Positions 2,959 through 21,687 of a stretch of DNA of 64,000 bases are shown here, piece after piece. The position numbers and the translations under genes were made by a program. The stretch's first letter is position 1; each line of letters begins with the position of its first letter. The notes beneath the pieces are model-generated. The model worked only from the letters and a program-made list of their open reading frames with translations. It did not search any database and was not told the DNA's origin. Origin of the DNA: Bryobacter sp. CoA8 C33 (lineage in GTDB: Bacteria; Acidobacteriota; Terriglobia; Bryobacterales; Bryobacteraceae). The stretch covers positions 1 through 64,000 of the forward strand of contig JAINDK010000026.1 in NCBI GenBank assembly GCA_019931185.1, written 5' to 3'.

Positions 2959-3306
2959 GTGCAGACACAGCTTTTTGACCGGGAAGCAGCCCTAGCGAGA
3001 GTCGGTGACGACGAGGAATTGTTGACTGAGCTAATACGGATCTTCCTCGACGATTATCCCAATAGCCTGTCGGTAATAGACGAAGCCGTCGCCAAGCAGG
3101 ACCCGCCACGGCTTGAGAAGGCCGCACATACCCTCAAGGGAGCAGTGGCTAACTTTGGGGCGCACGCCGTGGTGAAGGAAGCCTTCGAGTTGGAGAGATT
3201 GGCGCGAAGCGGAGACCTAAGCCTCGCCTCGGAAAGCCTGAGTCGGCTGCATGTAGTATTAGAGCAACTCGACTATGAGTTGCGGCCAATCGCGGAAATG
3301 GCTTAA
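2959..3306 (+). CDS. Hpt (histidine phosphotransfer) domain protein
   Basis: This single-domain protein of 115 residues is a four-helix Hpt module. The phosphoacceptor is His57 in the motif A-A-H-T-L-K-G-A, the standard Hpt signature, and the rest is acidic and helical. It starts at a GTG with a weak GAGG upstream. Hpt proteins carry phosphate between the receiver of a hybrid kinase and a final response regulator. The neighbouring hybrid kinase (1681-2730) is the obvious upstream partner, although a MITE-like element now separates the genes. No terminal response regulator is in the window. Confidence 0.9.
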   Translation: MQTQLFDREAALARVGDDEELLTELIRIFLDDYPNSLSVIDEAVAKQDPPRLEKAAHTLKGAVANFGAHAVVKEAFELERLARSGDLSLASESLSRLHVVLEQLDYELRPIAEMA

Positions 3307-3307
3307 C

Positions 3308-3333
3308 AAGCAAGCCTCCTCGAGGGGTTGCTT
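3308..3333 (+). terminator. stem-loop after Hpt gene
   Basis: AAGCAA pairs with TTGCTT, with an inner CCTC/GAGG stem, directly after the Hpt stop codon. The T tract that follows is short (TTGTT), so termination may be weak or the hairpin may act on RNA stability. Confidence 0.4.
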
Positions 3334-3356
3334 TGTTAAACTGAAGTAGTATCTTT

Positions 3357-4202
3357 ATGGAAGAATCTTCATTACGGGAAATCGTGTGCGCACACAGCCC
3401 GGACTCCGACGATGCCTATATGTTTTACGCGCTGGCAACGCGGAAGCTGCGCAGTTCTCTCGTCCACTTCGTCCATAAACTGTCGGATATCCAGTTGTTG
3501 AACCAGAAGGCGCTGGCCGGGGAATACGAGCTGACGGCGATCAGCTACCATGCCTATCCCTATGTGGCGGACAAATACCAGTTGATGGCTTCGGGATCAA
3601 GCATTGGGGATGGCTACGGGCCGATGATCGTGGCGACCACGCCGATGGCGCCGGAGGATTTGAAGGGGAAGCGGATCGCGGTGCCGGGAAAGATGACGAC
3701 GGCCTATCTGACGATGCGGTTGTTTGAGCCGGACTTCACGGAAGTGGTGGTGCCGTTTGACAAGATTCTCGACGCGGTGAGTGACGGGGTAGCCGACGCT
3801 GGGTTAGTTATCCATGAGGCGCAGCTGACCTACGGACGCAGCGGCTATCACAAGGTGATCGACCTGGGGGTGTGGTGGAAGAATACGCAGGGACTGCCCC
3901 TGCCGCTGGGGGCGAATGCCATATTGCGCTCGCTGCCGGAGGACATCAAGACCGAGTGCTGCCGGTTGATGCGCGAGAGCATTGAGTATGCCATTGAACA
4001 CAAGGACGAGGCGCTCCCGTATGCAATGCAGTTTGCCCGCGATATGGAGCAACCGCTGGCCGAGAAGTTTGTCGGAATGTATGTGAACCATTACACCGTG
4101 GATTGTGGCGAGATCATTCCGCGCGCGGCGCAGTTGCTTCTCGACATGGGCCATGAGCGAGGATTAATCCCCCATCGTGTCGAAGTTGAATTTGTGCGCT
4201 AG
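3357..4202 (+). CDS. mqnD: MqnD-type 1,4-dihydroxy-6-naphthoate synthase (futalosine menaquinone pathway)
   Basis: The 281-residue protein has the periplasmic-binding-protein-like fold of the VitK2_biosynth family. The N terminus carries a HSPDSDDAYMFYAL segment, which matches the SPCPNDTF region of MqnD rather than MqnA, and the family hallmark around SGSSIGDGYGP is intact. MqnD cleaves cyclic de-hypoxanthine futalosine to 1,4-dihydroxy-6-naphthoate, a menaquinone precursor. No signal peptide is present, as expected for the cytoplasmic enzyme. The ATG at 3357 has no strong ribosome site. The next gene starts inside its last 26 bases. Other mqn genes are not in the window. Confidence 0.85.
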   Translation: MEESSLREIVCAHSPDSDDAYMFYALATRKLRSSLVHFVHKLSDIQLLNQKALAGEYELTAISYHAYPYVADKYQLMASGSSIGDGYGPMIVATTPMAPEDLKGKRIAVPGKMTTAYLTMRLFEPDFTEVVVPFDKILDAVSDGVADAGLVIHEAQLTYGRSGYHKVIDLGVWWKNTQGLPLPLGANAILRSLPEDIKTECCRLMRESIEYAIEHKDEALPYAMQFARDMEQPLAEKFVGMYVNHYTVDCGEIIPRAAQLLLDMGHERGLIPHRVEVEFVR

Positions 4203-5454
4203 ATACGCGTTCGTTCTGTTGGCCTTGGCCGCAACCGGCCAAGACAAACCGAAGGACAAGATCAAGAACCTGGAAGCGCTGGCCAAACAGGGACGGGCGG
4301 CGGTGCCTTCGATTCGGCCCTGGCAGCAGGATGCGGACGCGAGCGTGCGCTACGCGGCGGTGGAGGCGCTGATTGAGGCCGGCGGTGTGGAGAGCGTGGA
4401 TGCGCTGCAGGCAAGCCTGGCCGATACCACCCCCGAGGTGCAGCGGTTGGCGGTGGCGGGAATCGTGAATTTTTACCGCCCGGGTTATGTCCGCAAGGGT
4501 ATACGGGCGAAGCTGAACGCGGTGGGGGAGAAAATTAGCCGGTCGGGCATGGAGCCTGTGGTGGACCCCTGGGTGGCGGTGCGGAGCCAAGACATCGAAG
4601 CCGTGCGCAAGGCGCTGCGCGAGTCCGGCAACCGGGACGTGAAATTGCAGGCGGCCGAGGCTTTGGCGACATTGCGGGCGCGCGGGGCGCTCGGGGACAT
4701 TTATCCGCTGTTGAAGACCAAGGACGATGGCCTGATGCTGGCGGCATTACGGGCTATCGAGACGGCCGGCGACAAGGCGGCGGCGCAGGAGACGGTGTTT
4801 CTGCTGCGGGATCTGAACAACCGGATCCAGTCGCGGGCGATTCTGGTGAACGGAATCTTCCGCAATGAGAAGGCGTTACCGGATCTGGCCGAGGTGTTCG
4901 CGCGGAGCCGCAATGCGCAAAGCCAGGCAGCGGCGCTGGAGGCCATCGCGATGATCGCCGCGCCGGAGAGCCGGGGCTTGTTTGAACAGAATCTGGAAAA
5001 CAGGGAAGAGCGCTTGCGGGGCTTGGCCGCCGAGGGGCTGGGCCGGGTAGGAGACGGGGCGGCGCGTCAACGGCTGGCTGAGCTGTTTGCGGCTGAGAAG
5101 ACGCCGCGCGGCCGGCTGGGGCAAGCCTTTGCGCTTGTGAAGCTGGGCGACCGGGAGGCGTCGCAGTTCAGCCCGTTTCAGTATCTGTTTGATTCGCTGA
5201 ATTCAGCGGCCTGGCATGACTATGCCGAGGCTTATTTGCTTGAGCTGGGGCGGCATCGTGAGGTGAGAAAGCTATTGCGGGAGAAGGCGCCGACGGGGAC
5301 GAGAGCGGAAAAGGTGGGAATCGCGCGCATTCTGGCGCGAGAGGGGACAGCCGAGGACCGGGCGATCGTAGATGCACTGGCGAACGACCGGGACCGGATT
5401 GTAGCTGAAGAAGGCATAAAGGCAGCCCGAGCGCTGGGCTCGCGGCTGCCTTAA
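4177..5454 (+). CDS. HEAT-repeat protein, probably exported
   Basis: The 425-residue protein starts with a short hydrophobic leader (residues about 8-21) after a GTG codon that lies inside the end of mqnD. The rest is a chain of HEAT-like helical pairs rich in Ala, Leu and Arg, with recurring elements such as VRYAAVEALIEAG, VKLQAAEALATL and LRGLAAEGLGRVG. Such scaffolds bind other proteins; no catalytic motif is visible. The 26-base overlap with mqnD suggests translational coupling, but a link to menaquinone synthesis is not shown. Secretion is uncertain, since the leader is short and lacks a clear cleavage site. Confidence 0.8.
   Translation: MSKLNLCARYAFVLLALAATGQDKPKDKIKNLEALAKQGRAAVPSIRPWQQDADASVRYAAVEALIEAGGVESVDALQASLADTTPEVQRLAVAGIVNFYRPGYVRKGIRAKLNAVGEKISRSGMEPVVDPWVAVRSQDIEAVRKALRESGNRDVKLQAAEALATLRARGALGDIYPLLKTKDDGLMLAALRAIETAGDKAAAQETVFLLRDLNNRIQSRAILVNGIFRNEKALPDLAEVFARSRNAQSQAAALEAIAMIAAPESRGLFEQNLENREERLRGLAAEGLGRVGDGAARQRLAELFAAEKTPRGRLGQAFALVKLGDREASQFSPFQYLFDSLNSAAWHDYAEAYLLELGRHREVRKLLREKAPTGTRAEKVGIARILAREGTAEDRAIVDALANDRDRIVAEEGIKAARALGSRLP
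5419..5452. terminator. long hairpin overlapping the HEAT gene stop codon
   Basis: AAGGCAGCC at 5419-5427 pairs with GGCTGCCTT at 5444-5452, with an inner CGAGC/GCTCG stem and a 5-base loop: about 14 paired bases with one bulge. It ends on the stop codon and lies between two convergent genes. No T tract follows on either side, so it may block read-through in both directions without being a classic intrinsic terminator. Confidence 0.45.
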
Positions 5455-5480
5455 GGGTTCGGATCGACGGAAGGGAAGCT

Positions 5481-5690
5481 TTACTTAGCCTTCTTCTGTT
5501 TCTGCTGACCGACGCGGACTTTGAACTGCCGGGCTTGCGCATCGGCATAGGCTTTCCAGTCGAAACGCTTGGCGGCGTCAGACAGGTATGCATTCACGTC
5601 GGCTTCCTTGGGGAGAACAGCCATGATGGTGGCCGTTTGGGTGCCATCGGGATTGGAGATCCGATAGCGCTTTACGTTCGGGATAGCCAT
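5481..5690 (-). CDS. small basic protein of unknown function
   Basis: A 69-residue protein beginning MAIPNVKRYRISNPDG and ending in a lysine-rich tail (GQQKQKKAK). It has no signal peptide, membrane segment or cysteine. It lies only 7 bases after the SDR gene, which in turn lies 7 bases after the photolyase, so it is most likely the third gene of that operon. The N-terminal part looks like a small beta-rich fold and the middle is helical. I do not recognise the family. The tight operon position and normal codon use support it as a real gene. Confidence 0.7.
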   Translation of the reverse strand: MAIPNVKRYRISNPDGTQTATIMAVLPKEADVNAYLSDAAKRFDWKAYADAQARQFKVRVGQQKQKKAK

Positions 5691-5697
5691 AGCATTT

Positions 5698-6597
5698 CTA
5701 GTATAGCAAGGAGCGGAGGGCGGGCTCGAGGGTGGGGTGCTGAAAACGGTAGTCTTGGGCGATGAGTGAGGCGGGGAGCACGCGCTGGCTGGACAGGATG
5801 ATGGCGCTCATCTCGCCGAGCAGGAAGCGAAGCGCGATTTCGGGGACGGGAAGGAACGCAGGACGGTGCAATACTTTACCGAGGGTCCGAGTGAAATCGG
5901 CATTACGGGCGGGTTCGGGAGCAGTGAGATTGAGAGGACCGGAGGGGAGACCGGGACCGAGCAGGAAGGCAACGGCGGCAGTCCAGTCATCGATGTGAAT
6001 CCAGCTCATCCATTGCTGTCCGCTGCCCAGTTTGCCGCCGATGCCGAGGCGAAAGACCGGCAACATGCTGGCCAGAGCGCCGCCCTCGCGGCCGAGCACG
6101 ACACCAGTGCGGAGACAGTTGACGCGGATGCCGAGCGAGCGGGCGAGGTTGGCTTCTTTTTCCCATTCGAGGGTGAGGCCAGAGAGAAAGCCAGAGCCGG
6201 GAGCGGAATCCTCCGTCAAGGTTTCGTCACCGCGGTCTCCATAAATACCGACGGCGGAGGCGCAGAGAAAGATACCGGGGCGGGCCGAAAGGGTCGACAG
6301 AGAGTGAACGAGGGAGCGGGTGGTGTCGAGACGGCTCGCGCGCAAGAGGGCTTTGGTTTCGGGGGTCCAGCGCTGGTTGACCGAAGCGCCGCTCAAGTGA
6401 ATGAGGGCATCGGCGCCGGATAGGGCTTCGGGGGGAGCATCGAGGCGGGGCGGGTTCCAGAGAAAGGTTTCCACACCCGGCGGCAGGCCGGTGACGGGAC
6501 GGCGGACGAGGAGGCGGAGTTCATGACCGGCGGCATGAAGGCGCCGCACGAGGCGATCACCAAGAAAGCCGGTTGCGCCGCTGAGAGTGATGCGCAT
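5698..6597 (-). CDS. TIGR01777-type NAD(P)-dependent epimerase (YfcH-like SDR)
   Basis: This 299-residue extended short-chain dehydrogenase has the Rossmann nucleotide motif SGATGFLG near the N terminus, the family segment LIHLSGASVNQRW, the S-A-V-G-I-Y-G-D active-site region with the Tyr, and a C-terminal DUF1731-like part (LPASLIAQDYRFQHPTLEPAL). The family is often called epimerase/SulA-like, but its substrate is not known. The start is the ATG at 6597, just after the photolyase stop at 6605; the open frame extends upstream but that part overlaps the photolyase. Pairing with a photolyase occurs in other bacteria, yet a shared role in light or DNA-damage response is inference. Confidence 0.88.
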   Translation of the reverse strand: MRITLSGATGFLGDRLVRRLHAAGHELRLLVRRPVTGLPPGVETFLWNPPRLDAPPEALSGADALIHLSGASVNQRWTPETKALLRASRLDTTRSLVHSLSTLSARPGIFLCASAVGIYGDRGDETLTEDSAPGSGFLSGLTLEWEKEANLARSLGIRVNCLRTGVVLGREGGALASMLPVFRLGIGGKLGSGQQWMSWIHIDDWTAAVAFLLGPGLPSGPLNLTAPEPARNADFTRTLGKVLHRPAFLPVPEIALRFLLGEMSAIILSSQRVLPASLIAQDYRFQHPTLEPALRSLLY

Positions 6598-6604
6598 CGA
6601 GGAC

Positions 6605-8023
6605 CTATTGTAGGGGATGCGGCTCGCAGCCGGTAGACTCGAGCCAGGCAATCTCGCGGAGGTAGGCGGCTGAATCGGTCTTGCGCTTCATACCGTCGTA
6701 GGACATAAAGCGGATCTGGCCGAAGATGGAGCGTTCGCCCCAGGGCCGGTCATGGAGGCCAAAACACCAGAGAATGCCGGTGTAGGTATTGGGGTCGCGG
6801 CCATCGAGGGCATATTTGTCGTGTAAGTAGATCATGGTTTCGAGGGCGTCCTGGCAGGTGGGAGACCACTCGATGATCTTCTTACCCCAGTACATGCGGT
6901 AGTAGCCATGCATCTTGCCGCGCAATAGAAGCTCTTTCTGGGTGGCGTTCCAAATGTCGTCGTGGGTGAGGGCTCGCTCGAACTGCTCGCGGGAGTAGCA
7001 GGGCTTGCGCTCGTCGGTAGCGTGCGCGAGTAGGGTACGGCGGGCCCAGTCTGGCAGACTCGAGAGGCATTCAGTCTGACGGCCGGCATAGCGGGCGAAG
7101 TTGAAGGCGAGTTCGCGGCGGACGATCATCTCCTCGAGGAATTCGGCGCTCGAGAGGTTGTTTTCAAGGCCGTGCCGCTCGACGGCAAGGGCAACATCGA
7201 GAGCACTGATCATGCCGAAATGAAGATAGGGGCTGAGGTTGGAGGTGGCGTGGGCAGCAGGGTGGTTGCGGTCGGTCGAGTAGCGGCGGAGATTGCGGTC
7301 GAGAAAAACAGCAAGGCGCTTTTCGGCCTCGAGGGCGCCGCCGCGAAAGGTGAGCGAGGGAGCGACGGAATGGTCAATTTCACAGGAGGCGACGAGGGCA
7401 TCGATGTTGCCGGCGGTCACTTCGGTGTGAAAGGCGGGCAGGGGCAGGTTCCAGCGTTGGCGCAGGACCGGCATATCCCAGGGTTTGAGATATTCGGGCA
7501 GGAGGCGGTGGACCTTGGGCCGAATCGTGTAGGCGGCGTACTCGCGCTTCTCGAAACGATTCATGGGAATTACGCAACTGGAATCGACGGCGAGGTAGGG
7601 GATGGAAAGCTTGGCGGGGACCGAAGAGTTATGTTGGGCGGCGATAAAGGTGGGGTAATCGTCGGTGATAAGGGCGGCGGCGTTTTCGGCCAGACGATAG
7701 AGCGTGTTGTTGGAGTCGGACTTGCGGGCGCGGAGGTAGAAGACGTAGCCCGCGCCGAGAGCGGCGAGGCGTTTGGCGGTTTCCGGCACTCCTTCGAGGA
7801 TAAAGGTGTGGAGGCGGCGGTTCGCCTGGCGGTAGGTGCAGGTAAGGGCTTCGTAAACCAGAAGGGGGAGCTTGAGGCTGTTGGCCAAGGAGATGGCGTG
7901 GGCGAGGGCGTGATTGCCGCTGACGCGGCGGTTCATCTGGCTCCAATAGAGCACGTATTGGGCATGGGGACGCAGTGGCGCCTGATTCAAACCGCGGACG
8001 CGGTCGTGGAAGAGAGAATTCAA
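6605..8023 (-). CDS. phrB: class II deoxyribodipyrimidine photolyase
   Basis: The 472-residue flavoprotein uses light and FADH- to split cyclobutane pyrimidine dimers in DNA. The FAD-binding C-terminal half has the class II hallmarks: HPAAHATSNLSPYLHFG, FLEEMIVRRELAFNFARY, WNATQKELLLRGKMHGYYRMYWGKK (given here in overlapping parts) and GLHDRPWGERSIFG. The N-terminal antenna domain starts YVLYWSQMNRRVSGNHAL. A TTG at 8023 is chosen as start because it gives the normal class II length and leaves about 50 bases to the divergent radical SAM gene; the open frame upstream would overlap that gene. It heads an operon with the SDR and the 69-residue protein. Confidence 0.92.
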   Translation of the reverse strand: MNSLFHDRVRGLNQAPLRPHAQYVLYWSQMNRRVSGNHALAHAISLANSLKLPLLVYEALTCTYRQANRRLHTFILEGVPETAKRLAALGAGYVFYLRARKSDSNNTLYRLAENAAALITDDYPTFIAAQHNSSVPAKLSIPYLAVDSSCVIPMNRFEKREYAAYTIRPKVHRLLPEYLKPWDMPVLRQRWNLPLPAFHTEVTAGNIDALVASCEIDHSVAPSLTFRGGALEAEKRLAVFLDRNLRRYSTDRNHPAAHATSNLSPYLHFGMISALDVALAVERHGLENNLSSAEFLEEMIVRRELAFNFARYAGRQTECLSSLPDWARRTLLAHATDERKPCYSREQFERALTHDDIWNATQKELLLRGKMHGYYRMYWGKKIIEWSPTCQDALETMIYLHDKYALDGRDPNTYTGILWCFGLHDRPWGERSIFGQIRFMSYDGMKRKTDSAAYLREIAWLESTGCEPHPLQ

Positions 8024-8074
8024 TTCGTTTCTACAGATGAGTGTTGTTTGACCAACGCTACAATAAAACAAACG

Positions 8075-9145
8075 ATGCGAGCATGGAACCGCGCTCGCCT
8101 GTTGTGGGGATATCTGACGCGGAAGCCGCGGCTGAACGCCCTGCCCGTCGAGTACATCGTCGAAACTACGGCTAAATGTAACATCTACTGCCCGATGTGC
8201 CCGCGTGAGACGCACAAGCAGCCGAAGGAAGACATGACGGATGCCGTCTTCGAACGGCTCGTGCGGGAAAGCGGGGAATCCGCCGAGCACATGATGTTGA
8301 TTGGGCTGGGAGAACCTTTGCTCGATCCGAAGATCTATGACCGGATCGAGTTTTGCGAGAAGCACCGGATTTCAACGCTGTTGTCGACCAATGGAACGCT
8401 GCTCGACGAGAAGGCGGCTGCGCGGCTGCTTGCGACCCCGCTCGAGCATATTACGCTGAGCTTTGACGGGGCGACGGCGGAGAGTTTTGAGTTCTACCGC
8501 AAGGGGGCGCGCTATGAGCGGGTGCGGGACAACTTTGTGCGTTTCGCCGGCATGAAGGCGCGCTTGAAGTCGAAGCTGCAGGTGGTGGTGCAGATGGTTC
8601 GGATGGAGAAGAATTGGGACGAGGTGGAGGACTTTGAGCGGTACTGGCGGTCGGTGCCGGGCGTCGATCAGACGCGAGTAAAGGCCGATGAGACGAACCT
8701 GATGAACCCTGAGGGAGGACACGCGCCGGCCGACTTTGCGCATCCTTGTCACTATCTATGGCGCGGGCCGATGTACATTAAGCATAACGGGGACGCCTAT
8801 CCGTGCTGTCAAAGTTATATGCTCGACGGGGCGCCCGTGGGGCGAATCGGGGAGCAGCCGCTGGCGGAGATTTTCAATTCGCCGGCCATGCAGGAGATGA
8901 GAAAGCTCCATGCGGAGGGCCGGGCGGGAGAGATCGGGATTTGCGCGAAGTGCCGGACGTCGATTCCGCATCCGGTGCTGGTGGCGGGGAGTTTAATATT
9001 CCACGGACGGACGGTGAGAAAACTGCTGCCGCTGGTGGAGAAGCTCGCGTATTGGACGCGGATGCCGTTACGGCTCCTGCGGCCGGCCAAGCAGGCGCGA
9101 CCGCAGGCGCGGGATCTGGTGCGGATCAACGGACAGAAAGACTGA
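8075..9145 (+). CDS. radical SAM/SPASM domain protein
   Basis: The 356-residue protein has the CxxxCxxC cluster motif at Cys35, 39 and 42 (CNIYCPMC) that binds the SAM-cleaving 4Fe-4S cluster, followed by a partial TIM barrel with GLGEPLLD and STNGTLLD. The C-terminal region is SPASM-like: CHYLWRGP, DAYPCCQSYM, GRIGEQPLAEIF and a final CAKC, with cysteines for an auxiliary cluster. SPASM enzymes modify peptides, proteins or small molecules; no precursor peptide gene is seen next to it, so the substrate is unknown. It is divergent from the photolyase, and its last 20 bases overlap the convergent anti-sigma gene. The ATG at 8075 is the first after the divergent promoter region. Confidence 0.88.
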   Translation: MRAWNRARLLWGYLTRKPRLNALPVEYIVETTAKCNIYCPMCPRETHKQPKEDMTDAVFERLVRESGESAEHMMLIGLGEPLLDPKIYDRIEFCEKHRISTLLSTNGTLLDEKAAARLLATPLEHITLSFDGATAESFEFYRKGARYERVRDNFVRFAGMKARLKSKLQVVVQMVRMEKNWDEVEDFERYWRSVPGVDQTRVKADETNLMNPEGGHAPADFAHPCHYLWRGPMYIKHNGDAYPCCQSYMLDGAPVGRIGEQPLAEIFNSPAMQEMRKLHAEGRAGEIGICAKCRTSIPHPVLVAGSLIFHGRTVRKLLPLVEKLAYWTRMPLRLLRPAKQARPQARDLVRINGQKD

Positions 9146-9722
9146 ATTCGCGGACAACACTCTCACCCTGCTTGAGGCGAATCCAGAATTGGCCGGAGGG
9201 AAGTCCCTCGAGTTCAATGTGGCCGTCTCGCAAAGCACCTTCCTCGAGCTTTTCGCCAGAGGCCGAGACAAGTTCCCAGGAGACCGTACCGGCAGGCAGA
9301 CCAGTGAGATCCGTCTTGAGGTGGAGCTTGCGGCCGGCGGGGGCTTGCGTGCGGTTTTCATTGCGCACCGCAACGAGTTCGAGATCGGCGGGATTTGAGT
9401 ACCGCTCGAGGGCGGCGGGGATCAGCAGAAGGCCAACAGCACCGGCGGCGATGGCTGCGGGCAGGTAGCCGCGAGGCTGGCCGGATGAGGGCCGGTCGAG
9501 TACAGCTTGGGCCGCCGACTTAGTGGCGGTGGTAAAGGCATCGATCTTCTCCAGTCGGGTCTGGCACCAGGAGCAGAGCAGCAAGTGCTCTTCGAGAACC
9601 GCAACATCCTCCTCGCAGGACAGACGTCCGAGGGAATACGCTTCAAGAGCTTCCTCAATGAGGTGTGAGTTTTCGATGATCCGCGGCGCGGACGCTTCCC
9701 GCTCAGGCAAACGCCTATCCAT
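9126..9722 (-). CDS. membrane-anchored zinc-finger anti-sigma factor
   Basis: The 198-residue protein has a ZAS-type zinc-binding anti-sigma module with H-x3-C-x2-C at His46, Cys50 and Cys53. A single membrane helix follows at about residues 85-104. The C-terminal 90 residues are beta-rich (LHLKTDLTGLPAGTVSWEL ... ELEGLPSGQFWIRL) and resemble a carboxypeptidase-regulatory or Ig-like domain. By the usual topology the zinc module is cytoplasmic and binds sigma while the beta domain faces the periplasm. It follows the sigma gene by 65 bases in the same operon, the normal place for a cognate anti-sigma factor. Its periplasmic domain is a candidate target for the lipoprotein protease encoded upstream. 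Confidence 0.82.
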   Translation of the reverse strand: MDRRLPEREASAPRIIENSHLIEEALEAYSLGRLSCEEDVAVLEEHLLLCSWCQTRLEKIDAFTTATKSAAQAVLDRPSSGQPRGYLPAAIAAGAVGLLLIPAALERYSNPADLELVAVRNENRTQAPAGRKLHLKTDLTGLPAGTVSWELVSASGEKLEEGALRDGHIELEGLPSGQFWIRLKQGESVVREFSLSVR

Positions 9723-9787
9723 AAAGCCTCCAATACGAGCAGTCAAGGGCGGGGGAGGTGGTTCCTTGTCTCACTCGAGAGTATGAG

Positions 9788-10513
9788 TTAAGAGTGGGCG
9801 GCGCCGGAACTTTTTCTCACAAAAAATGCACGAAAATTGTTTTTTGCCATTCGGCGGCGGCCTTCGTCGCTAAAGCGCTGCTTGGCGCGAGACTTAAGCA
9901 GACGGAATTGGGTATCGTTGAGACCCATTTCGGCGCAGATTTGCTCCTGGGATTGTTCGAGGAGGTAGAAGCGGGTGAGAATTTCGCGGTCCCGGCGGGA
10001 ACAGTCACGGAGAATCTCCTCCATGATCCGCGAGTTTTGGGTCCGGATGGCGGCTTCCTCGGGGCTGATGTTGCGATCGGCGACGCGGACTCCGCTATCG
10101 ATGTCGAGCTCATCGCGGCGCCGCGTGTAGATTTTTTCGATGAAATTCGCGATCTGGCGGCGGACGATCGTGCGGACAAACCCCATCAGGCGTTCTGGTT
10201 CGCGAAGTTCACCGCGCTGAATCGCTTGGACCACAATGACAAATGTGTCATGGACGCGGTCGTCGATATCCTGACGGCCCAACTGGCGGACGATCATGAA
10301 CTTGATGCCGCGGGAGAAGAGGCCGTAGAGTTGCTCGAGGGCAGCGGATTCGTTGCGTTGGATACGCGCGACAAGCTCATGCCAGTCAACGGATTGAGCG
10401 GGATCGGGAGGAGCATTGGCGGGGACTGGACCCTGCCGCGGCTCAGCCCTGTCAGCGGACTTGTCTTGATTATCGATGGCGCGGGGCTCATCCATGGTGT
10501 GGATCAAAAGCAT
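9788..10513 (-). CDS. ECF-type RNA polymerase sigma factor
   Basis: The 241-residue protein has sigma region 2 (LEQLYGLFSRGIKFMIVRQL and DIDDRVHDTFVIVVQAI) and region 4 with its helix-turn-helix (REILTRFYLLEQSQEQICAEMGL), but no region 1.1 or 3, as in group 4 (ECF) factors. An acidic, proline-rich stretch of about 40 residues precedes region 2. The start is the ATG at 10513, just after an AAGG site that overlaps the stop codon of the CHAT gene (stop 10519-10521), so translation of the two is probably coupled. It would direct RNA polymerase to a small stress regulon, possibly including its own operon. Confidence 0.9.
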   Translation of the reverse strand: MLLIHTMDEPRAIDNQDKSADRAEPRQGPVPANAPPDPAQSVDWHELVARIQRNESAALEQLYGLFSRGIKFMIVRQLGRQDIDDRVHDTFVIVVQAIQRGELREPERLMGFVRTIVRRQIANFIEKIYTRRRDELDIDSGVRVADRNISPEEAAIRTQNSRIMEEILRDCSRRDREILTRFYLLEQSQEQICAEMGLNDTQFRLLKSRAKQRFSDEGRRRMAKNNFRAFFVRKSSGAAHS

Positions 10514-10518
10514 CGACC

Positions 10519-12981
10519 TTATCCTTTCCCCAACAAGATGAAGCTGGCCCAGTAGACGGGCCGGGCGCTCCAATCGGAGCGCTGTAGGAGTTGCAGTTGA
10601 GCATGGCGAAGGGCGGAGGCGACATCGCGGGAGCTGCCAGGGCGGTCGAGGACATGCTGGTAAAAAAGCGGAAACAGGGGGCCGTCGGTGTCCTGAAGAG
10701 GCCAAAGCGTGGCCAGGACATTGCTGGCGCCGGAAATCAGGAAGGCTCGGGCAAGGCTATTGATGGCAATGCCGGAGTGGGATACGCCCTGCGCCGAGGC
10801 GCAGCCGGAGAGCACAACAAGCTTGGCGGTGGTACGAACGGAGTTGAGGTCTTCCAGACCGAACAGACCAGCCTCGTCGGAGGATCCATTTGGGCTGAGA
10901 GCGATTTGGGTGGATTGTGCGCCGCTGCCTTGGCTGATGACGTGCGCAGAGATGTGAAGGATGCCAGAGGATTGACCTAGTGCGTTGCGCAGATTGGCTG
11001 GGGTTGCTTCGGCGCCCGTGCGCGAGAAGCGGCGCCAGTGGCGGCGCTCGAAAATCGCCCCGGTTTGTTCCCACTCCCGCGCGGAAGCAACGAGCCGGTT
11101 CAGACCAAGGAGAGCCTTTGTCTTTCCGCGTTCGTCAGCCGTATTGTAGACCGGGTCGACGAAGCCAGTGATTGAGGGCGTCCAACTCCAGGCGGAATCA
11201 CGGCCCAGCATCATCGCCGAGGGCAGGAAGCGTAATGTTTTGTCTTCGACGAGATATCGCGACGGGTTCTCGGGGCTGGGCAGTGCGGCAAATGCCAGCT
11301 TGGCCAAGTCCTGGTCTATAACCATGGTCCAGAAAGGGGTAGTCGGTCTAGAACGGGAAAAATCTCCAAACAATTGCCGGGAGAGTTCCATTCCGGAACG
11401 GCTACACTGGGCCGGGGAGCGAGAGACGAGGGCGCGCGAGAATTCTTCAATGAGTTTTCCCAGTTTGGCGCGGCCGGCGAGACGGTGAACGGTGACTTGG
11501 CCACGGCGGACGATCCAGACGAGGGAATTGGGTTCACTGAGGTAGTAAGAGAAGAGCGTTTCATCCCCGGGGAGGCGACGCAGCCAAGAGGAGATCTGAC
11601 CGGAACCGACGGCTTCGGGACGAGGCAACTCTAGGCCGACGGCGATTTCGGCCATTTTCAGATGGTGCTCGAGGTCGGCCAGCTCGTGGGGGGAGACAGG
11701 TTTACCCGCGGCGGAAAGGGTTTGGAGTTGTTGAAAGCGGGCTAGTTTGGCCCAATAGGTGGAATCGAGCTGGCCGGCGAACTGAGTTTGGGACCACTGG
11801 GCGGCGCGCATGCTGCCGAAGCGGGCTTCTTCGGCGATCTGGAGGGACTCTTCGGCTACTCCGGATTGGTTGAGGTTGAAGTCATTGCGGGCGAGGATGT
11901 CGAGAAAGGCGTGTTGGATTTCGCTGTCGAGGTTGGCTTCGAAGTTGAGAAAAGTTGAATTGGCTGGCAGAACCTCCATGCGCCAGCTGCGGGCGCGCCG
12001 GAGAGCGGAGCGAAGATAGGGAAGCGAGCCGCTAAAGCTACCTCGGGCGAGTTCAATCCGGGCGCGTTCACGGTCGAGCAGAAACAGGAGCATGGGGCTG
12101 CGGTTGCCGGGATCGAGAGCTTGTGCGGTGGCCAGCAGGCGGATGGCCTCGGGGAAGCGTTTGCGGCCGCGCTCAACCATGGCGAGGTGCAGAACTTCCC
12201 GCAACCGGTTTTGATCACGATAGGTAGCGCGGATACGGTAGGCCTCGAGGCAGTACTTTTCGGCCGCCTCGAAACGTCCCTCATGGAGGAGCAACTGGGA
12301 GTACATTGCCATGGCGTAGGCGCGACGCAATTCCCTGGCACTTTCGGGCCACTTGCCGATGGTGTGCTGATAGGCGGCGAGAACGGCGGGGGGCGGATCA
12401 CGATCAGCCTCAGTCAAGGCGAGCAGAAATGCGCGATGGGCCCCGTCGTGGTCCTTCAGGCGGGCCCGGATGCTGGCCAGCAGCATCAGACCCTGGAGCC
12501 GTACGGAGGGGATTATGTGGGAACCGTCTTCGGGGTAACGGTTGACAACGCGCGCGGCGCCCGCAATCTCGCCCATTTCGAGCAGGATGCTGGCAACGTT
12601 GAGGGCAGCCGTATTTTCGAGTTCGCGCAGGCCATTTTTCCGGGCCAGTTCCAAGGCCTCGCTATAGTAGCGCATGGCTTCCCGGTAGCTTGAGATGGCC
12701 TGGTGGCAACCCGCCAGATTATTCGTCAGTTGCACGAGGAGTTTGGTGTCGCCGCTCAAGCGCGCTTCGGATCGAGCCTGCTGGTAAAGATCAATGGCAG
12801 TTTCGTAGTTCTGCTCGACCGTTTTCTGGTAGGCCTCTGCTTTGAGAGCAGACAGTTTAGGAGGGGGAGCTTTGCCGGCAGGGTAGGTTTCGTTTAGCCA
12901 GACCTGCTGAGTGGGGGACTTGCATCCTCCCAGTAGAAGAATCAGGATGCCGAAATAAAGAAAGCGCGTTTCCTGGAGCAT
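10519..12981 (-). CDS. TPR-CHAT caspase-like protease lipoprotein
   Basis: An 820-residue lipoprotein precursor. The leader ends in L-L-L-G-G-C with lipidated Cys20, so the mature protein should sit in the cell envelope. Residues about 45-420 form TPR-like helical repeats (AIDLYQQARSEARLSG, REAMRYYSEALELARKNG, RFEAAEKYCLEAYRI). The C-terminal 300 residues are a CHAT domain, a clan CD cysteine protease relative of caspases, with the catalytic dyad His680 (LHISAHV) and Cys727 (VVLSGCASAQG). TPR-CHAT proteins use the repeats to sense a trigger and then cleave a partner. It is translationally coupled to the ECF sigma gene. The start is the ATG at 12981, chosen because it gives a perfect lipoprotein leader. 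Confidence 0.9.
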   Translation of the reverse strand: MLQETRFLYFGILILLLGGCKSPTQQVWLNETYPAGKAPPPKLSALKAEAYQKTVEQNYETAIDLYQQARSEARLSGDTKLLVQLTNNLAGCHQAISSYREAMRYYSEALELARKNGLRELENTAALNVASILLEMGEIAGAARVVNRYPEDGSHIIPSVRLQGLMLLASIRARLKDHDGAHRAFLLALTEADRDPPPAVLAAYQHTIGKWPESARELRRAYAMAMYSQLLLHEGRFEAAEKYCLEAYRIRATYRDQNRLREVLHLAMVERGRKRFPEAIRLLATAQALDPGNRSPMLLFLLDRERARIELARGSFSGSLPYLRSALRRARSWRMEVLPANSTFLNFEANLDSEIQHAFLDILARNDFNLNQSGVAEESLQIAEEARFGSMRAAQWSQTQFAGQLDSTYWAKLARFQQLQTLSAAGKPVSPHELADLEHHLKMAEIAVGLELPRPEAVGSGQISSWLRRLPGDETLFSYYLSEPNSLVWIVRRGQVTVHRLAGRAKLGKLIEEFSRALVSRSPAQCSRSGMELSRQLFGDFSRSRPTTPFWTMVIDQDLAKLAFAALPSPENPSRYLVEDKTLRFLPSAMMLGRDSAWSWTPSITGFVDPVYNTADERGKTKALLGLNRLVASAREWEQTGAIFERRHWRRFSRTGAEATPANLRNALGQSSGILHISAHVISQGSGAQSTQIALSPNGSSDEAGLFGLEDLNSVRTTAKLVVLSGCASAQGVSHSGIAINSLARAFLISGASNVLATLWPLQDTDGPLFPLFYQHVLDRPGSSRDVASALRHAQLQLLQRSDWSARPVYWASFILLGKG

Positions 12982-12990
12982 TTTATTTCG

Positions 12991-13023
12991 TCCTAGGAGT
13001 ACCAAAGCTCAGTACTCCTAGGA
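12991..13023. promoter_or_regulatory. perfect 12-bp inverted repeat upstream of the CHAT operon
   Basis: TCCTAGGAGTAC (12991-13002) and GTACTCCTAGGA (13012-13023) are exact reverse complements separated by 9 bases. Each arm also contains the self-complementary octamer TCCTAGGA next to GTAC. On the minus strand a TATATT box at 13023-13028 abuts the distal arm, which would place the palindrome at the start of the transcript. It could be an operator for a dimeric repressor or a 5' leader hairpin, and it ends only 9 bases upstream of the CHAT start codon, close to its ribosome site. Confidence 0.6.
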
Positions 13024-13028
13024 ATATA
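13023..13028 (-). promoter_or_regulatory. candidate -10 box of the CHAT operon
   Basis: On the minus strand the sequence reads TATATT here, directly upstream of the palindrome. The -35 region (around TTATTG, 18 bases further) is a poor match, as expected if the promoter needs an activator or an alternative sigma factor. Confidence 0.3.
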
Positions 13029-13354
13029 TCAGAGTTTCGACTTAGGCAATAAAGTTTTCACTTTTTCCACAATATAGCTAGAGCTTTGTTGCCGGATTGG
13101 GGCGATGCCCCGCGAACTAGAACAGGTCAGGGATGATGATGATGATGGGTTCCATGAGCGGTATCCTTTTGAGCAAACAGAGTTTGTGTGACACTTGGTC
13201 AACGGATTGAGGGTAAAGAACAGCGGGACGGACCCCGGCGGTTTAACGCGCGAAACGCACGCAAGCTGTTCAAAACGTTGTGGAAAAAATATTTCCGAAA
13301 CGTGCGAACCCGGTTTTCGGTCTGGATAAGTGGGACCTGCTAATCTGAAGAGGG
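13029..13354. other. intergenic region between the CHAT operon and the LPS export genes
   Basis: This divergent spacer of about 330 bases should hold promoters for both directions. Besides the palindrome, TATATT box and short ORF listed separately, it has an (ATC)n run at 13133-13149 and an A/T-rich stretch at 13050-13080. An overlapping 114-codon minus-strand frame has poly-Ser from the same ATC run and no coding character. No further gene is seen. Confidence 0.6.
13117..13155 (-). CDS. 12-residue leader-like ORF with five Ile codons
   Basis: An ATG at 13155 is preceded by an AAAGGA ribosome site 8 bases upstream. It encodes MEPIIIIIPDLF and stops with TAG. The five isoleucines come from an (ATC)5 run. 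It lies about 135 bases upstream of the CHAT gene on the same strand, and a GGGGC/GCCCC mini-hairpin follows its stop codon. The arrangement recalls leader peptides that regulate by ribosome stalling, but the gene downstream has nothing to do with isoleucine synthesis. A chance ATC microsatellite remains possible. Confidence 0.35.
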   Translation of the reverse strand: MEPIIIIIPDLF

Positions 13355-13357
13355 TTG

Positions 13358-15625
13358 ATGCGCCGCGCCTCACCTTACCTGTTGTTGACCGTCATCCTGG
13401 GGATCGGCGGAGTTGTCTGGTACAGCTACCAGCAGCGAGTGGCTGTACAAAAACGAAACAGAATAGCGGCACCACAACCCCTATCAAGCACGCTGAATTC
13501 CAAAGCAGAGGGCTTTGTTTATGCAACGAGCGAGGGGAACCGCACGGTGGCGGAATTGCGGGCGCGGGATTACCGGGAGATCAAGGATCCGCCCCACATG
13601 CAACTGGAGGAAATGGAGTTGCGACTCTTCCATCCCGACGGGAAGACGTTTGACTTGGTGAAGGCGGCGCGGGGAAGTTTTTATCCGGCGGAAAGCCGGC
13701 TCTCGAGCGAAGAACGGGTGGAAGTACAAATGGCTATGAGTACTGAGGGTCCGGTAGCTGGGCGAATTCTGAACATTGTGGCGAAGGGGGCAAGTTTAGA
13801 GATCAAGACGGGCAAAATGATGAGTCAAGGGGATGTGGAGTTTCGATTTGAACAGGAGGGTGGTATTGGACAGGGACAGGCGCGCGGGGCCGAGTACGAT
13901 CCGGGGACGAAAGAGCTACGGCTGTTGGCAGCATCGAGGTTAAGCTGGAACGCGAAGGGGCCTGGCGTGGAGGCCATTGAGGTGGAAAGTGAACAGGTGT
14001 TGTACCAGGAACGGGAGGCTAAGGTGTATCTGTCTCCCTGGTCGAAGATGCGCAAGGGAGGCTTTGAGTTGGCTGGGACGCAAAGCGAAGTCAAGCTGGA
14101 AAAGGGAGTGATCCGGCACGTAACGGCAAATGAAGCGCGGGGAGTGGACCGGGGACCGAGGCGGGTGGTGAACTATGCGGCACGGTTGTTGAATGTGGAC
14201 TTTAATGAAAACGGGCAGATTGAGAAAGTGATCGCCGAGCAGGATGCGCGGCTCGAAACGACTGGGGATAGTGGAGTTACGAAGTCGGCGGCACAAAGGA
14301 TGGATTTGTTTTTTCTGACGGTGGCGAAGGGATCGCAATTGGAAAAGGCGCTGGCGAATGGAAAGGCTTCGATCGTCTCGACACCGCCGGCGCGGGAAGG
14401 CAGGCCGGTTGGGGAGACGAAGATTCTGCGGAGTGAAGCGATTGAGATGAAGATGCGGCGGGGCGGAGAGGAATTGGAAGTGGTGGAGACACATGCGCCG
14501 GGAACGCTGGAGTTTGTACCGAACCGGACGGGACAGCGGCGGCGCCGGCTGGCTGCGGAACGGATGGTGATACAGTATGCGGCGAACAATCAACTGGAGC
14601 GTTACCGGGCCGTTGGTGTGGAGACGCGCACGGAGCCGGCCGAGGGCGCGCCCAAGGGATCGACAGCAATGCTGACATCCAGCCGGGACCTGGAGGCGTA
14701 CTTTGAGCCGAAAACGGGCGAATTGAAGCGGCTCGAGCAGTGGAACGATTTTCGTTATCAGGAAGGAGAACGGTACGCGCGGGCCGAACAGGCGGTGCAG
14801 CAGGGCCCGGAACAGTGGATTACACTGACGACGAAGGCGCGAGTATGGGACACAAGTGGTTCGACCGAGGCGCGGGAAATCACACTCGAGCAGCGAACAG
14901 GGGAATTTGTGGCTGTGGGGCAAGTGAGATCGACGCGGGAGCCTGAGCGAGGGCAGAAGGGGGCAGTGCCGACACAGGCGACGGCGGAGCGGATGGAGGC
15001 GCGCGAGGCGAACACCAAAATTCGTTATGAGGGCAATGCGGTGATGTGGCAGGCAGAGAATCGGCTGCGGGCCCCGCGCATTGACATTGACCGCAAGGCG
15101 GCACAATTGAGGGCTTTCGGGGGCCTCACGCATCAGATGGTGGATGAGCGCTCGGCGCAGGCGCGAAAGTCCGGAGGGGTGCTGACGACGGTGACTGCAG
15201 CCGAGATGTTCTATGATGACCGGGAGCGCCTGGTGGAATACCGCGGTGGGGTGCGGATGAACCGGCCGGGGCTTGAAGTTTTGTCGAGTCTGTTGCGCTC
15301 GTATCTGGAGCCGGAAGACACAGAGCGATTCAATGAGCAGCCGTCTGGAGGGATTGAAAAAGCCTTTGCCTACGGAAATGTGCGCATCACCGAGACGGGC
15401 ATGGAGAGAGTCCGGAAGGGTGTGGGGGACTCTGGTGAGTATTACACGGCGGAAGGGCGGCTGGTGCTCGAAGGCAAGAAACCGGAAATGCTGGATATCG
15501 TGCGGGGCGTCGAGCGGCGGCGGGCTACCGGCAAGCAACTGAGCTGGTTTGCCAATAACAACAAAATCATCGTCGATGGGGCCGAGCAGAAACCGGGGCT
15601 GAGCACGCTTGAGCGAAAGCGGTAA
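13358..15625 (+). CDS. LptC/LptA (OstA)-like LPS transport protein, long fused form
   Basis: The 755-residue protein has one N-terminal membrane helix (residues 7-24) and then a very long beta-rich region built of OstA/LptA- and LptC-type jelly-roll repeats: elements such as ATRGxxY/AxxMDLFF, ISLEIKTGKMMSQGDVEF, ARVWDTSGSTEAREITLEQ and RAPRIDIDRKAAQLRAFG. In proteobacteria LptC (about 190 residues) and LptA (about 185) are separate; this protein is long enough to join the membrane anchor and several bridge segments in one chain. It lies 9 bases upstream of lptB, the ATPase of the same transporter. It begins at the ATG at 13358, after GAAGAGG. Identification rests on fold-like repeats and context. 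Confidence 0.75.
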   Translation: MRRASPYLLLTVILGIGGVVWYSYQQRVAVQKRNRIAAPQPLSSTLNSKAEGFVYATSEGNRTVAELRARDYREIKDPPHMQLEEMELRLFHPDGKTFDLVKAARGSFYPAESRLSSEERVEVQMAMSTEGPVAGRILNIVAKGASLEIKTGKMMSQGDVEFRFEQEGGIGQGQARGAEYDPGTKELRLLAASRLSWNAKGPGVEAIEVESEQVLYQEREAKVYLSPWSKMRKGGFELAGTQSEVKLEKGVIRHVTANEARGVDRGPRRVVNYAARLLNVDFNENGQIEKVIAEQDARLETTGDSGVTKSAAQRMDLFFLTVAKGSQLEKALANGKASIVSTPPAREGRPVGETKILRSEAIEMKMRRGGEELEVVETHAPGTLEFVPNRTGQRRRRLAAERMVIQYAANNQLERYRAVGVETRTEPAEGAPKGSTAMLTSSRDLEAYFEPKTGELKRLEQWNDFRYQEGERYARAEQAVQQGPEQWITLTTKARVWDTSGSTEAREITLEQRTGEFVAVGQVRSTREPERGQKGAVPTQATAERMEAREANTKIRYEGNAVMWQAENRLRAPRIDIDRKAAQLRAFGGLTHQMVDERSAQARKSGGVLTTVTAAEMFYDDRERLVEYRGGVRMNRPGLEVLSSLLRSYLEPEDTERFNEQPSGGIEKAFAYGNVRITETGMERVRKGVGDSGEYYTAEGRLVLEGKKPEMLDIVRGVERRRATGKQLSWFANNNKIIVDGAEQKPGLSTLERKR

Positions 15626-15634
15626 TCTGGAAGC

Positions 15635-16381
15635 TTGCGAACACTCAAGACCACGGAACTGATCAAGGCCTACTCGGGACGGCGCGTTGTCGATGGCGTG
15701 AGCGTATCGGTGGAGCAGGGTGAGGTGGTTGGTCTGTTGGGGCCGAACGGGGCGGGCAAGACCACTTCCTTCTACATGATTGTGGGATTGGTGTCGCCCG
15801 ACAGCGGCAGGATTCTTCTGGATCACGCGGATGTGACGGATTTGGCGATGTATGAGCGAGCGCGCCGGGGCATTAGCTATCTGCCACAAGAGCCAAGTGT
15901 GTTTCGCAAGTTGAGTGTTGAGCAAAATCTCATGGCCATCCTCGAGACGCTGCCCCTAGACGGGCGGCAGCGGCGCGAGCGGATGAACCGCCTGATTGAG
16001 CAATTGGGGTTGGAAAAGGTGGCGCGCAATCAGGGCTACATGCTGAGCGGAGGAGAGCGGCGGAGGGTGGAGATCGCGCGGAGTCTGGTGATTGAGCCGC
16101 ATTTTCTACTGCTGGATGAGCCTTTTTCGGGGATTGATCCGATCCAGGTGCTTGAATTGCAGAGGATCATCGGGGAGCTAAAGCGGCAGGGGATCGGGAT
16201 CCTGATGACGGATCACAATGTGCGGGAGACGCTGGCGGTGACGGACCGGGCCTACATCATCAATAACGGGAAAATCTTCCGAGCCGGCAGCCCGGCGGAG
16301 TTGGGGCGGGACGCGGAGGTCAAGCGCGTTTATCTGGGGGAAAACTTCTTTTTTCAGGACGGTGGTGCGCGGCCGCACTGA
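15635..16381 (+). CDS. lptB: LPS export ABC transporter ATPase LptB
   Basis: The 248-residue ATPase has Walker [10 protein letters not shown], the Q-loop in [13 protein letters not shown], signature [13 protein letters not shown], Walker B FLLLDEPF and the H-loop TDHNVRETL. The [14 protein letters not shown] segment is typical of LptB rather than of branched-chain amino acid ATPases. LptB powers LptFG to pull lipopolysaccharide from the inner membrane into the Lpt bridge. It starts at a TTG, 9 bases after the LptC/A-like gene, with a TGGAAG site. LptF and LptG are not in the window. Confidence 0.95.
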
Positions 16382-16437
16382 GAGCGGCAAACAATCTCTC
16401 TAGTGGAAACGGCTGCTGCCGATAAGGACATTTAACA

Positions 16438-17295
16438 ATGTTTTCCATTATCGGTATCGTCGTCGTTCTAGGCGCCGTGGCAGGTGGCTTCGCCATGTCT
16501 CACGGCAAGTTTCCCGTGCTTTGGCAGCCCGCGGAATTGGTCGTGATATTTGGCGCCGCGCTGGGCAGTATGCTGGTGGCCAATCCCATCGCCAACATAA
16601 TGGCGCTAATCAAGGGAATTCTGAGTGTTCTGAAGGGGAGTCCCTATAACAAGAATTATTATCTGGACACGCTGAAGGCGCTGGCGGATGTATTCAACTA
16701 TGGAAGGAAAAACGGCTTACAGAAGCTGGAGACGGATATTGAGAATCCGAAGCAAAGCCAGCTCTTTACGCAGCACAAGTGCTTCACCACGAATCATCAT
16801 GCGATGGACTTTGTTTGTGACACGCTGAGGACATCGATTGCGGGCGGTATTGGGCACTTCGAATTGGAGCAATCGATGGAGGCCGACATCGACATCATGA
16901 AGCACGAGCTGGAGCAGCCGGTGGGGGCATTGAAGGAGATGGCGGATTCGTTGCCTGGCATGGGGATTGTAGCGGCGGTTTTGGGCGTTGTGATCACGAT
17001 GGGCAGCCTAGGTGGGCCGCCGGAGGAGATTGGGGAACACGTAGCGGCGGCGCTGGTCGGAACTTTTCTGGGGATCCTGTTCTGCTATGGGATATTTGGG
17101 CCACTGGCGAGCAACATACAAAAGATCAACGAAGGGGAAATTGAATATATGCACGTGCTGCGGGCGGGAGTGGGGGCATTCATCAAGGGTGCTGCGCCCA
17201 TTCTGGCGGTCGAGATGGCGCGGCGGTCGATTCCACCGCATGTCCGGCCGAGCTTCAAGGATATGGAGCAGAAGGTGAAGGGCGGGGGCAAGTAA
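16438..17295 (+). CDS. motA: flagellar motor stator protein MotA
   Basis: The 285-residue inner-membrane protein has four predicted membrane helices: two near the N terminus (residues 1-20 and about 30-52) and two in the second half (around 195-245), separated by the large cytoplasmic loop that contacts the rotor. The signature ADSLPGMGIVAAVLGVVITMG, with the conserved Pro before helix 3, is intact. With MotB it forms the ion-conducting stator of the flagellum. The ribosome site AAGGA lies 9 bases before the ATG. motB follows after 4 bases. It lies 56 bases after lptB, so the two operons may be joined. Confidence 0.95.
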   Translation: MFSIIGIVVVLGAVAGGFAMSHGKFPVLWQPAELVVIFGAALGSMLVANPIANIMALIKGILSVLKGSPYNKNYYLDTLKALADVFNYGRKNGLQKLETDIENPKQSQLFTQHKCFTTNHHAMDFVCDTLRTSIAGGIGHFELEQSMEADIDIMKHELEQPVGALKEMADSLPGMGIVAAVLGVVITMGSLGGPPEEIGEHVAAALVGTFLGILFCYGIFGPLASNIQKINEGEIEYMHVLRAGVGAFIKGAAPILAVEMARRSIPPHVRPSFKDMEQKVKGGGK

Positions 17296-17299
17296 AGCG

Positions 17300-18253: not shown

Positions 18254-18268
18254 GTTTCCACGACAATT

Positions 18269-18287
18269 CTCAGCTTCGTTAGCTGAG
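18269..18287. terminator. stem-loop after motB
   Basis: CTCAGCT and AGCTGAG form a perfect 7-bp stem with the loop TCGTT, 16 bases after the motB stop. No T tract follows. Together with the next hairpin it separates the convergent motB and fliA genes. Confidence 0.4.
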
Positions 18288-21679: not shown

Positions 21680-21687
21680 AAAAAGAT

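Follow-up and report, generated by a model that had tools for sequence, protein, structure and literature searches.

A conserved gene trio for a TPR-CHAT protein, an ECF sigma factor and an anti-sigma factor in Bryobacteraceae: a proposed envelope-signalling switch with an upstream micropeptide reading frame

The 64,000-nucleotide stretch analyzed here (the window) is part of contig JAINDK010000026.1 of Bryobacter sp. CoA8 C33, an acidobacterium of the family Bryobacteraceae, and carries on its minus strand, in this order, genes for a TPR-CHAT protein, an extracytoplasmic function (ECF) sigma factor and a zinc-finger anti-sigma factor (ASF). This trio is real and widespread in its family. Its products may form an envelope-signalling switch in which the exported CHAT protein would be the site-1 protease of the ASF, a reading which we consider slightly likelier to be right than wrong. 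CHAT probably acts on the ASF, because loss of the outer domain of the ASF tracks the absence of CHAT, an arginine of that domain is near-invariant, and the outer domain and CHAT diverge together.

Results

Conservation and distribution of the trio

A first-pass annotation of the window had described the three genes as an operon, and gene identities, order and positions are all borne out (Table 1). In a sigma-centred scan of named genomes, the best 80 of 191 matched stretches were analyzed as loci; they are labelled Bryobacterales, Terriglobia or other Acidobacteriota, and one is labelled Acidimicrobiia. Among these best 80, CHAT lies directly upstream of the sigma gene in 73 and the ASF downstream in 73, with both neighbours present in 68. 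An order-level survey of 200 genomes, 180 of them in the window's family, scored up to 5 CHAT and up to 14 sigma candidates per genome, and found a CHAT relative in 180 genomes and a sigma relative in 183. Taking one sigma locus per genome yielded 150 loci, which comprise all listed matches (E up to 4e-85); 138 of them have an adjacent CHAT (in L143 a remnant of 143 aa), 11 have none there and one is interrupted by a contig end before CHAT could be seen, and contig ends hide the state of CHAT or ASF at five of the 150 (L033, L123, L167, L174 and L179). The three-gene association is thus more than chance, since both neighbours occur in 68 of the best 80 loci and CHAT adjoins sigma in 138 of 150, and the conserved co-occurrence that had been suggested as a check is indeed found.

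Contig-end cases apart, 20 genomes with CHAT have no ASF beside it. A missing ASF was rejected as the explanation, as all 20 encode a full-length ASF elsewhere (E 5e-57 to 6e-38). Conversely, CHAT is not beside the sigma gene in G194 and G124, which have a full ASF and a trio-type CHAT elsewhere (658 and 543 bits). By eye, the gene that directly follows sigma where the ASF lies elsewhere is RecA/ImuA-like in genus g8 (L198, L200-L202, L205, L206 and L209), and a PfkB-type sugar kinase follows sigma in L150, L157, L212, L222, L224, L226 and L235. The sigma match contains in-frame stop codons in L010/L133 (G139), G012, G112, G144, G147, G156 and G186, which may reflect assembly errors, pseudogenes or matches that run past the gene end.

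Ten of the 180 family genomes gave no sigma match better than 1e-20, and for another 20, whose sigma matches are weaker, the analysis covered the 1.5-kb flanks, with CHAT adjacent in 11, a contig end upstream in two and no CHAT in seven. Three of these seven belong to genus g4 (G010, G178 and G119), in which a short ASF was seen in G010 and G178 and none was recognized within the flanks of G119; the order-level survey found a weak CHAT relative in G010 (3e-12) and none in G178. The others are G085, which has a full ASF, no CHAT in the flank and a CHAT relative elsewhere at 4e-48, and G044, G095 and G158, whose weak sigma matches have neither a CHAT nor an ASF neighbour in the flanks. In G175 and G086, CHAT is adjacent and no ASF was recognized within the 1.5-kb flank.

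A phylum-wide sigma search retrieved nine of 297 genomes at 1e-20, three from the window's family and six from other families. Among the distant loci, two in G444 and others in G371 and G390 show the order CHAT-sigma-ASF, and G366 shows the order sigma-ASF-CHAT; further loci of G371 and that of G207 have sigma and ASF without CHAT directly beside them, and in G208 sigma is accompanied by a short zinc-domain frame and by no adjoining CHAT. G006 contains a second sigma relative, which lacks both CHAT and ASF as neighbours.

The three gene products

The CHAT domain is recognized by Pfam family PF12770 at 5.7e-41 (141.3 bits against a curated cut-off of 24) and the TPR repeats by TPR_12 at 5.6e-10. 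Both residues of the dyad named in the first-pass annotation, His680 and Cys727, are right, and the dyad is His plus Cys in all CHATs that cover both positions (135/135; 3 of 138 rows were too short). The N-terminus of the window protein, MLQETRFLYFGILILLLGGC, forms a lipobox-bearing signal peptide, and a hydrophobic N-terminal segment occurs in 118 of the 122 long CHATs, a second such stretch being scored in one row. Lipobox-like patterns, by contrast, occur in only 21 of the 122, several of them doubtful by eye. Judged from these segments, export is general across the CHAT family and the lipobox is not; the description of the protein as an envelope lipoprotein therefore suits the window protein, and was rejected as a defining feature of the family.

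The structure model of the CHAT protein (pLDDT 86.9) resembles Csx29, separase and DdvA, with Foldseek E values of 1.5e-13 to Csx29 and 1.5e-12 to separase, and structural-alignment Z scores of 24 and about 20, respectively. Since a comparison of the whole profile with solved structures was swamped by TPR proteins, the CHAT part was compared alone, by sequence, and matched DdvA at 2e-10, separase at 1e-5 and Csx29 at 0.14. The window's genome holds two further CHAT matches, and no sigma factor was recognized by eye among the frames of these short loci (L002 and L003).

The sigma gene starts 5 nt past the CHAT stop codon (10519-10521), with AAAGGATAAGG spanning the junction, so that the coupling of the two genes noted earlier is tight and without overlap. 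Its product scores 47.9 bits with the ECF profile TIGR02937 of NCBIfam (cut-off 42.9), and its Pfam matches to regions 2 and 4 fall below their cut-offs. The window ASF has no Pfam match; the zf-HC2 profile matches 40 of 60 members of its family, the window protein not among them, and the family profile matches ChrR (1.3e-4) and RsiW (0.036) in the Protein Data Bank. Its earlier classification as a zinc-binding anti-sigma factor with one membrane helix agrees with the motif H46-x3-C50-x2-C53, whose ligands are kept in 60 of 60 aligned ASFs, and with a structure model in which a single helix (residues 87-107) is followed by an immunoglobulin (Ig)-like outer beta-sandwich (112-197). In these 60 sequences the only invariant columns are H46, C50, C53, R120 and E192.

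Joint absence and co-divergence of CHAT and the ASF outer domain

Ten of the 150 genomes are without a trio-type CHAT, their best profile score being 297 bits or less (trio-type CHATs score 543 bits or more in the 15 genomes compared). In nine of the ten, the ASF is truncated before or at the outer domain or there is no full ASF; the truncated ASF of G096 still has its membrane helix, that of G060 has a hydrophobic tail, and in G111 a full ASF was not found. The tenth, G092, has a full-length ASF in which the conserved arginine is lost. The 135 genomes with CHAT and of known state comprise 134 with a full ASF and one (L138) with a split ASF, and none is missing the outer domain; L138 was rejected as a counter-example, as its ASF is divided between two frames and the outer domain is encoded by the second. 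Genus g4 adds two short ASFs (G010 and G178) where the CHAT relative is weak or not found. Traced along the sigma tree, the presence of CHAT switches 7 times and that of the ASF outer domain 6 times, or 7 times if L138 is counted as lacking it.

Divergence was compared over 100 loci, in which the ASF outer domain correlates with the TPR part (r 0.66) and with the CHAT part (r 0.58). Given sigma, the partial correlations of the outer domain are 0.58 (TPR) and 0.48 (CHAT), versus 0.25 and 0.21 for the cytoplasmic part of the ASF; with 40 columns from each they are 0.47 and 0.40 versus 0.21 and 0.16. The link from CHAT to the ASF that had been drawn from the window alone thus gains from both co-divergence and the loss of the outer domain in nine of the ten genomes without a trio-type CHAT.

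A near-invariant arginine outside the membrane

In the ASF model, Arg120 is part of a loop that connects the first outer strand (112-116) to the following one (124-127). It is kept in 135 of 136 full-length ASFs, namely 134 aligned sequences and that of L153, where a long low-complexity insert soon after the arginine had misplaced it, and is followed by Gly in 100 of the 136. The sole full ASF without it is that of G092, a genome without a trio-type CHAT. Inspection by eye shows it in all nine full ASFs of the weaker-scoring family genomes too, and in all nine distant full ASFs, likewise aligned by eye, the corresponding place holds an Arg with Ala, Ser, Gly or Asn after it; the tenth distant ASF (L335) is a zinc-domain fragment only. 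The distant ASFs differ in membrane spacing and do not keep R182 and E192. Separase, metacaspases and gingipain cleave after Arg, and, being near-invariant and placed in a loop, Arg120 is perhaps the P1 residue of a cleavage site, or perhaps has a structural or contact role.

In four loci of other Acidobacteriota (L331, L332, L336 and L337), sigma-ASF pairs have a longer outer segment with the same Ig-like end and R-[ASG]; they have no CHAT directly beside them, and the contig of L332 has a CHAT about 5 kb away.

A conserved micropeptide reading frame and the 5' region

The three-gene account of the first-pass annotation stands as regards the trio and missed two upstream elements, a micropeptide open reading frame (micro-ORF) and an inverted repeat. 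Upstream regions could be obtained for 121 of the 150 loci. A loose search found the micro-ORF in 70 of these 121, versus 3 in their reverse complements and 6-9 in shuffles, and a wider search, designed after the misses had been seen, found it in 89 of 121, always with ATG. The consensus is M-x(0-4)-[DE]-P-I-[IV]-[IV]-[IVF]..., the length is 11-16 residues in 76 of the 89, and a Shine-Dalgarno-like tetramer precedes 58 of the 89 micro-ORFs versus 19 of 89 random positions. Substitutions at codon positions 1/2/3 in 40 close pairs number 60/35/145, and 49/33/119 outside the core demanded by the search, which, as far as sequence comparison can tell, is the pattern of a translated gene. The micropeptide has no signal peptide. 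In four loci (L244, L253, L259 and L261) a longer small ORF with a hydrophobic tail stands instead at a similar distance, perhaps as a diverged version.

The core motif was sought in 18 genomes, mostly picked where the ORF had been seen, with 21 matches in all, of which 16 fell at the CHAT locus and five elsewhere, one genome having none; the reversed motif gave two matches, one of them in the window's genome, where the only true match is that of the window. In all 12 loci that lack an intact CHAT next to sigma, the 1.5 kb preceding sigma yielded no micro-ORF, and all 19 short loci examined around other CHAT paralogues yielded none either. These absences are telling and not proof, as the patterns behind them recover 64 and 59 of the 121 upstream regions of true trio CHATs. 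Of the two relocated CHATs, that of G194 has a micro-ORF upstream (MPDPIIIIFPDSWM) and none was found upstream of that of G124; nor was one found at the distant trios. From these sequence patterns, the micro-ORF seems to travel with CHAT.

Between the micro-ORF and CHAT, a TCTG-N-TAT element occurs in 50 of 121 regions versus 0.65 in shuffles, and an inverted repeat in 49 of 121 versus 0-3. As RNA, the window repeat is predicted to form a fold of -20.6 kcal/mol that covers the probable ribosome site of CHAT; Rfam gave no match in the 5' region. Two roles for these elements were rejected: a regulon-wide operator, as the strict palindrome pattern occurs in 7 of 13 genomes with one site each, and an Ile-codon attenuator, as Val, Phe and Trp replace Ile in relatives.

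Divergent from the micro-ORF, at 13355-16381 of the window, lie genes for an LptC/LptA-like protein and an LptB-like ABC ATPase. At 16438-19426 stands an apparent motA/motB pair, followed by a FliA-like sigma factor on the opposite strand. All of these were named by eye.

Table 1. Positions in the window of the trio, its key residues and the upstream elements.
Feature	Position	Strand	Remark
TPR-CHAT gene	10519..12981	-	820 aa
TPR-CHAT protein layout			lipobox Cys20 in signal peptide; TPR about 41-448; pseudo-caspase and caspase-like domains about 470-820
CHAT His680 codon	10942..10944	-	His in 135/135 sequences covering both dyad positions
CHAT Cys727 codon	10801..10803	-	Cys in 135/135 sequences covering both dyad positions
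ECF sigma factor gene	9788..10513	-	ATG at 10513
Zinc-finger transmembrane ASF gene	9126..9722	-	198 aa
ASF zinc motif H46-x3-C50-x2-C53	9564..9587	-	
ASF predicted transmembrane helix, residues 87-107	9402..9464	-	structure model
ASF Arg120 codon	9363..9365	-	loop 13 residues outside membrane helix; candidate P1 site (putative)
Conserved micropeptide ORF MEPIIIIIPDLF (stop)	13117..13155	-	upstream of CHAT, same strand
Promoter-like element TCTGATAT (often TCTGGTATGATTC in relatives)	13026..13033	-	conserved
Inverted repeat CCTAGGAGTAC-N9-GTACTCCTAGG	12992..13022	.	as RNA, hairpin; 3' arm holds AGGA before CHAT start

Discussion

A proposed switch across the membrane and its alternatives

The conserved gene set, the export segment, the predicted topology, the invariant dyad, the near-invariant arginine, the joint absence and the co-divergence are the data from which we infer protease activity, its substrate, cut site and trigger, an RseP step and targets of sigma. 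In the proposed switch, the cytoplasmic zinc domain of the ASF would hold sigma at the membrane while its Ig-like domain is displayed outside, where it would be recognized by the exported TPR-CHAT protein acting as a caspase-like site-1 protease. Once activated through its TPR solenoid, CHAT would cut the ASF, most likely after Arg120, in the loop between the membrane helix and the Ig-like body, and an RseP-type M50 protease, together with cytoplasmic proteases, would then degrade the short stub and so free sigma. The window's genome has five RseP-type M50 matches (best 212 bits, G000:C125:86257-87498); the same family occurs in 14 of 14 control genomes, and hence its presence says little for the RseP step.

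Several observations weigh against this proposal. The joint absence of CHAT and the outer domain is strong in counts and represents few independent events: only five independent supported contrasts in CHAT are available, in which the ASF domain changes the same way in four, the opposite way in none and is unchanged in one (sign test, p 0.125). The co-divergence can reflect a shared history beyond that of sigma. Four of the nine distant full ASFs that keep the arginine have no CHAT directly beside them, and E192 equals R120 in its invariance across the 60 aligned ASFs; as the model places R120 at the base of the Ig-like domain, and as those distant ASFs keep it, it could be structural. Finally, the relocation of the ASF in 20 genomes means that adjacency is not needed, so that the operon of the first-pass annotation describes most loci, where the ASF adjoins, and not all.

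Part of this evidence would equally suit a CHAT that contacts the outer domain and controls the ASF by binding, as a sensor or co-inhibitor in the manner of RseB for RseA, its protease site serving another envelope protein. Joint absence and co-divergence require contact only and not cutting, and Arg120, given its retention in the four distant ASFs, could be a contact or structural residue; yet the dyad is invariant in 135 of 135 sequences, and the only CHAT-less genome with a full ASF (G092) has lost the arginine, for which reasons this alternative is rather unlikely, although it deserves to be taken seriously. More doubtful still is that CHAT is the output of the system, the ASF sensing alone, sigma driving the operon and CHAT executing a protective or self-damaging envelope response. 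CHAT proteins are effectors in several conflict systems, sigma-factor operons are often autoregulated, and CHAT is the first of the three genes, all of which would fit such an output; however, it predicts neither the absence of the ASF outer domain where CHAT is absent nor the co-divergence of the two. That the genes are mere neighbours, an old order inherited through one family without a functional link, would account for the sameness of that order and is very improbable, as the order differs in a distant genome (sigma-ASF-CHAT, L334), parts are relocated yet retained, and the absences of CHAT and of the outer domain are correlated.

The micro-ORF allows two interpretations. It may be only a leader peptide, in which ribosome pausing on hydrophobic or Ile codons would time CHAT expression and no ligand is involved; we hold the chances of this to be evenly balanced, and it is compatible with any reading of the trio. 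The micro-ORF lies just upstream of CHAT, from which it is separated in the window by the hairpin that covers the probable ribosome site of CHAT, the micropeptide lacks a signal peptide, and its co-variation with the TPR part is weak (partial r 0.17), all of which suit a leader; against it, the replacement of Ile by Val, Phe and Trp in many relatives makes a codon-specific sensor unlikely, and a promoter-like element stands between micro-ORF and CHAT. Alternatively, the micropeptide could be a signal or gate that binds the TPR solenoid of the exported CHAT, which then cuts the ASF at the conserved arginine. The micropeptides resemble the mature SHP pheromones of streptococci, and the peptide receptors Rap and NprR are among the many TPR structural matches of the CHAT model; nevertheless, we regard such a gate as improbable. 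No such four-part system was found in the open-licence literature, in which no search was aimed at the micropeptide.

Relation to known systems

The closest likeness is to DdvS/DdvA of Myxococcus xanthus, in which DdvA is a transmembrane ASF of an ECF sigma factor and bears a TPR-CHAT. DdvA residues 356-991 align to residues 33-818 of the CHAT model (Z 19.9, 570 aligned, root-mean-square deviation 7.8), it has His and Cys at the CHAT dyad positions, and its zinc domain matches the window ASF family weakly (E 0.063). Unlike in the window and the relatives examined, where they are two genes, ASF and TPR-CHAT form one chain in DdvA, and the window system looks like a split, exported counterpart of it. 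The first-pass statement that no system of this exact make-up has been described must therefore be qualified, in that DdvA, an ASF chain ending in TPR-CHAT, stands beside it, and the separate genes are what sets the window apart. DdvS controls a CBASS-CRISPR defence island, according to a review (PMC12288465); no link of the window trio to defence turned up, none having been specifically looked for.

In type III-E CRISPR systems, the TPR-CHAT protease Csx29 cuts the sigma inhibitor Csx30 (PMC10028731). This CASP system (Csx29/Csx30/CASP-sigma) shares with the trio a TPR-CHAT protease, a sigma inhibitor and an ECF sigma factor, and the CHAT model matches Csx29 (Z 24), but Csx29 is RNA-activated with Cas7-11, whereas the window protease has an export segment. 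No direct-repeat family (22 or more bases, spacing under 120) occurs at 3000-23000 of the window, hence no CRISPR-like array there, and RAMP-family matches in the window's genome lie only on another contig (C53), no Cas7-11-specific model having been run. Given the lack of a CRISPR-like array in that region and the separate genes, the trio is not a member of type III-E CASP, nor of the DdvA type.

CalpL/CalpT/CalpS is likewise a trio of protease, anti-sigma factor and ECF sigma factor, in which CalpL cleaves CalpT (PMC11417357), but CalpL is a Lon-type protease switched by cA4. The proposed cut outside the membrane followed by an M50 site-2 protease parallels the DegS/RseP-RseA-RpoE pathway (PMC8103513), with the difference that the site-1 enzyme would here be a caspase-like CHAT protein instead of DegS.

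SHP peptides are short and Ile-rich, and the SHP/Rgg and Rap-Phr systems pair short peptides with TPR-type receptors; the micropeptide differs in having no secretion signal, and its putative receptor in being an exported protease. No description of the trio was found among the results covered from the open-licence literature, and an ECF group catalogue may already include the neighbourhood.

Conclusions

The general principle of a protease-released ASF is already known, and the conserved micropeptide ORF is the new element. If the proposed switch is true, a relative of caspases and separase outside the inner membrane would open a transcription switch, outside CRISPR, and Craspase/CASP and DdvA would fall within a wider set of CHAT-sigma switches. 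Should the micropeptide also act as the gate, the system would be a peptide-gated, caspase-like site-1 protease that controls transcription across the membrane, with lineage-specific peptide types. The trio offers a precise candidate cut site in Arg120 and a natural knock-out series in the genomes without this CHAT, and the present work adds a micropeptide gene that is conserved in a family represented here mostly by metagenome assemblies.

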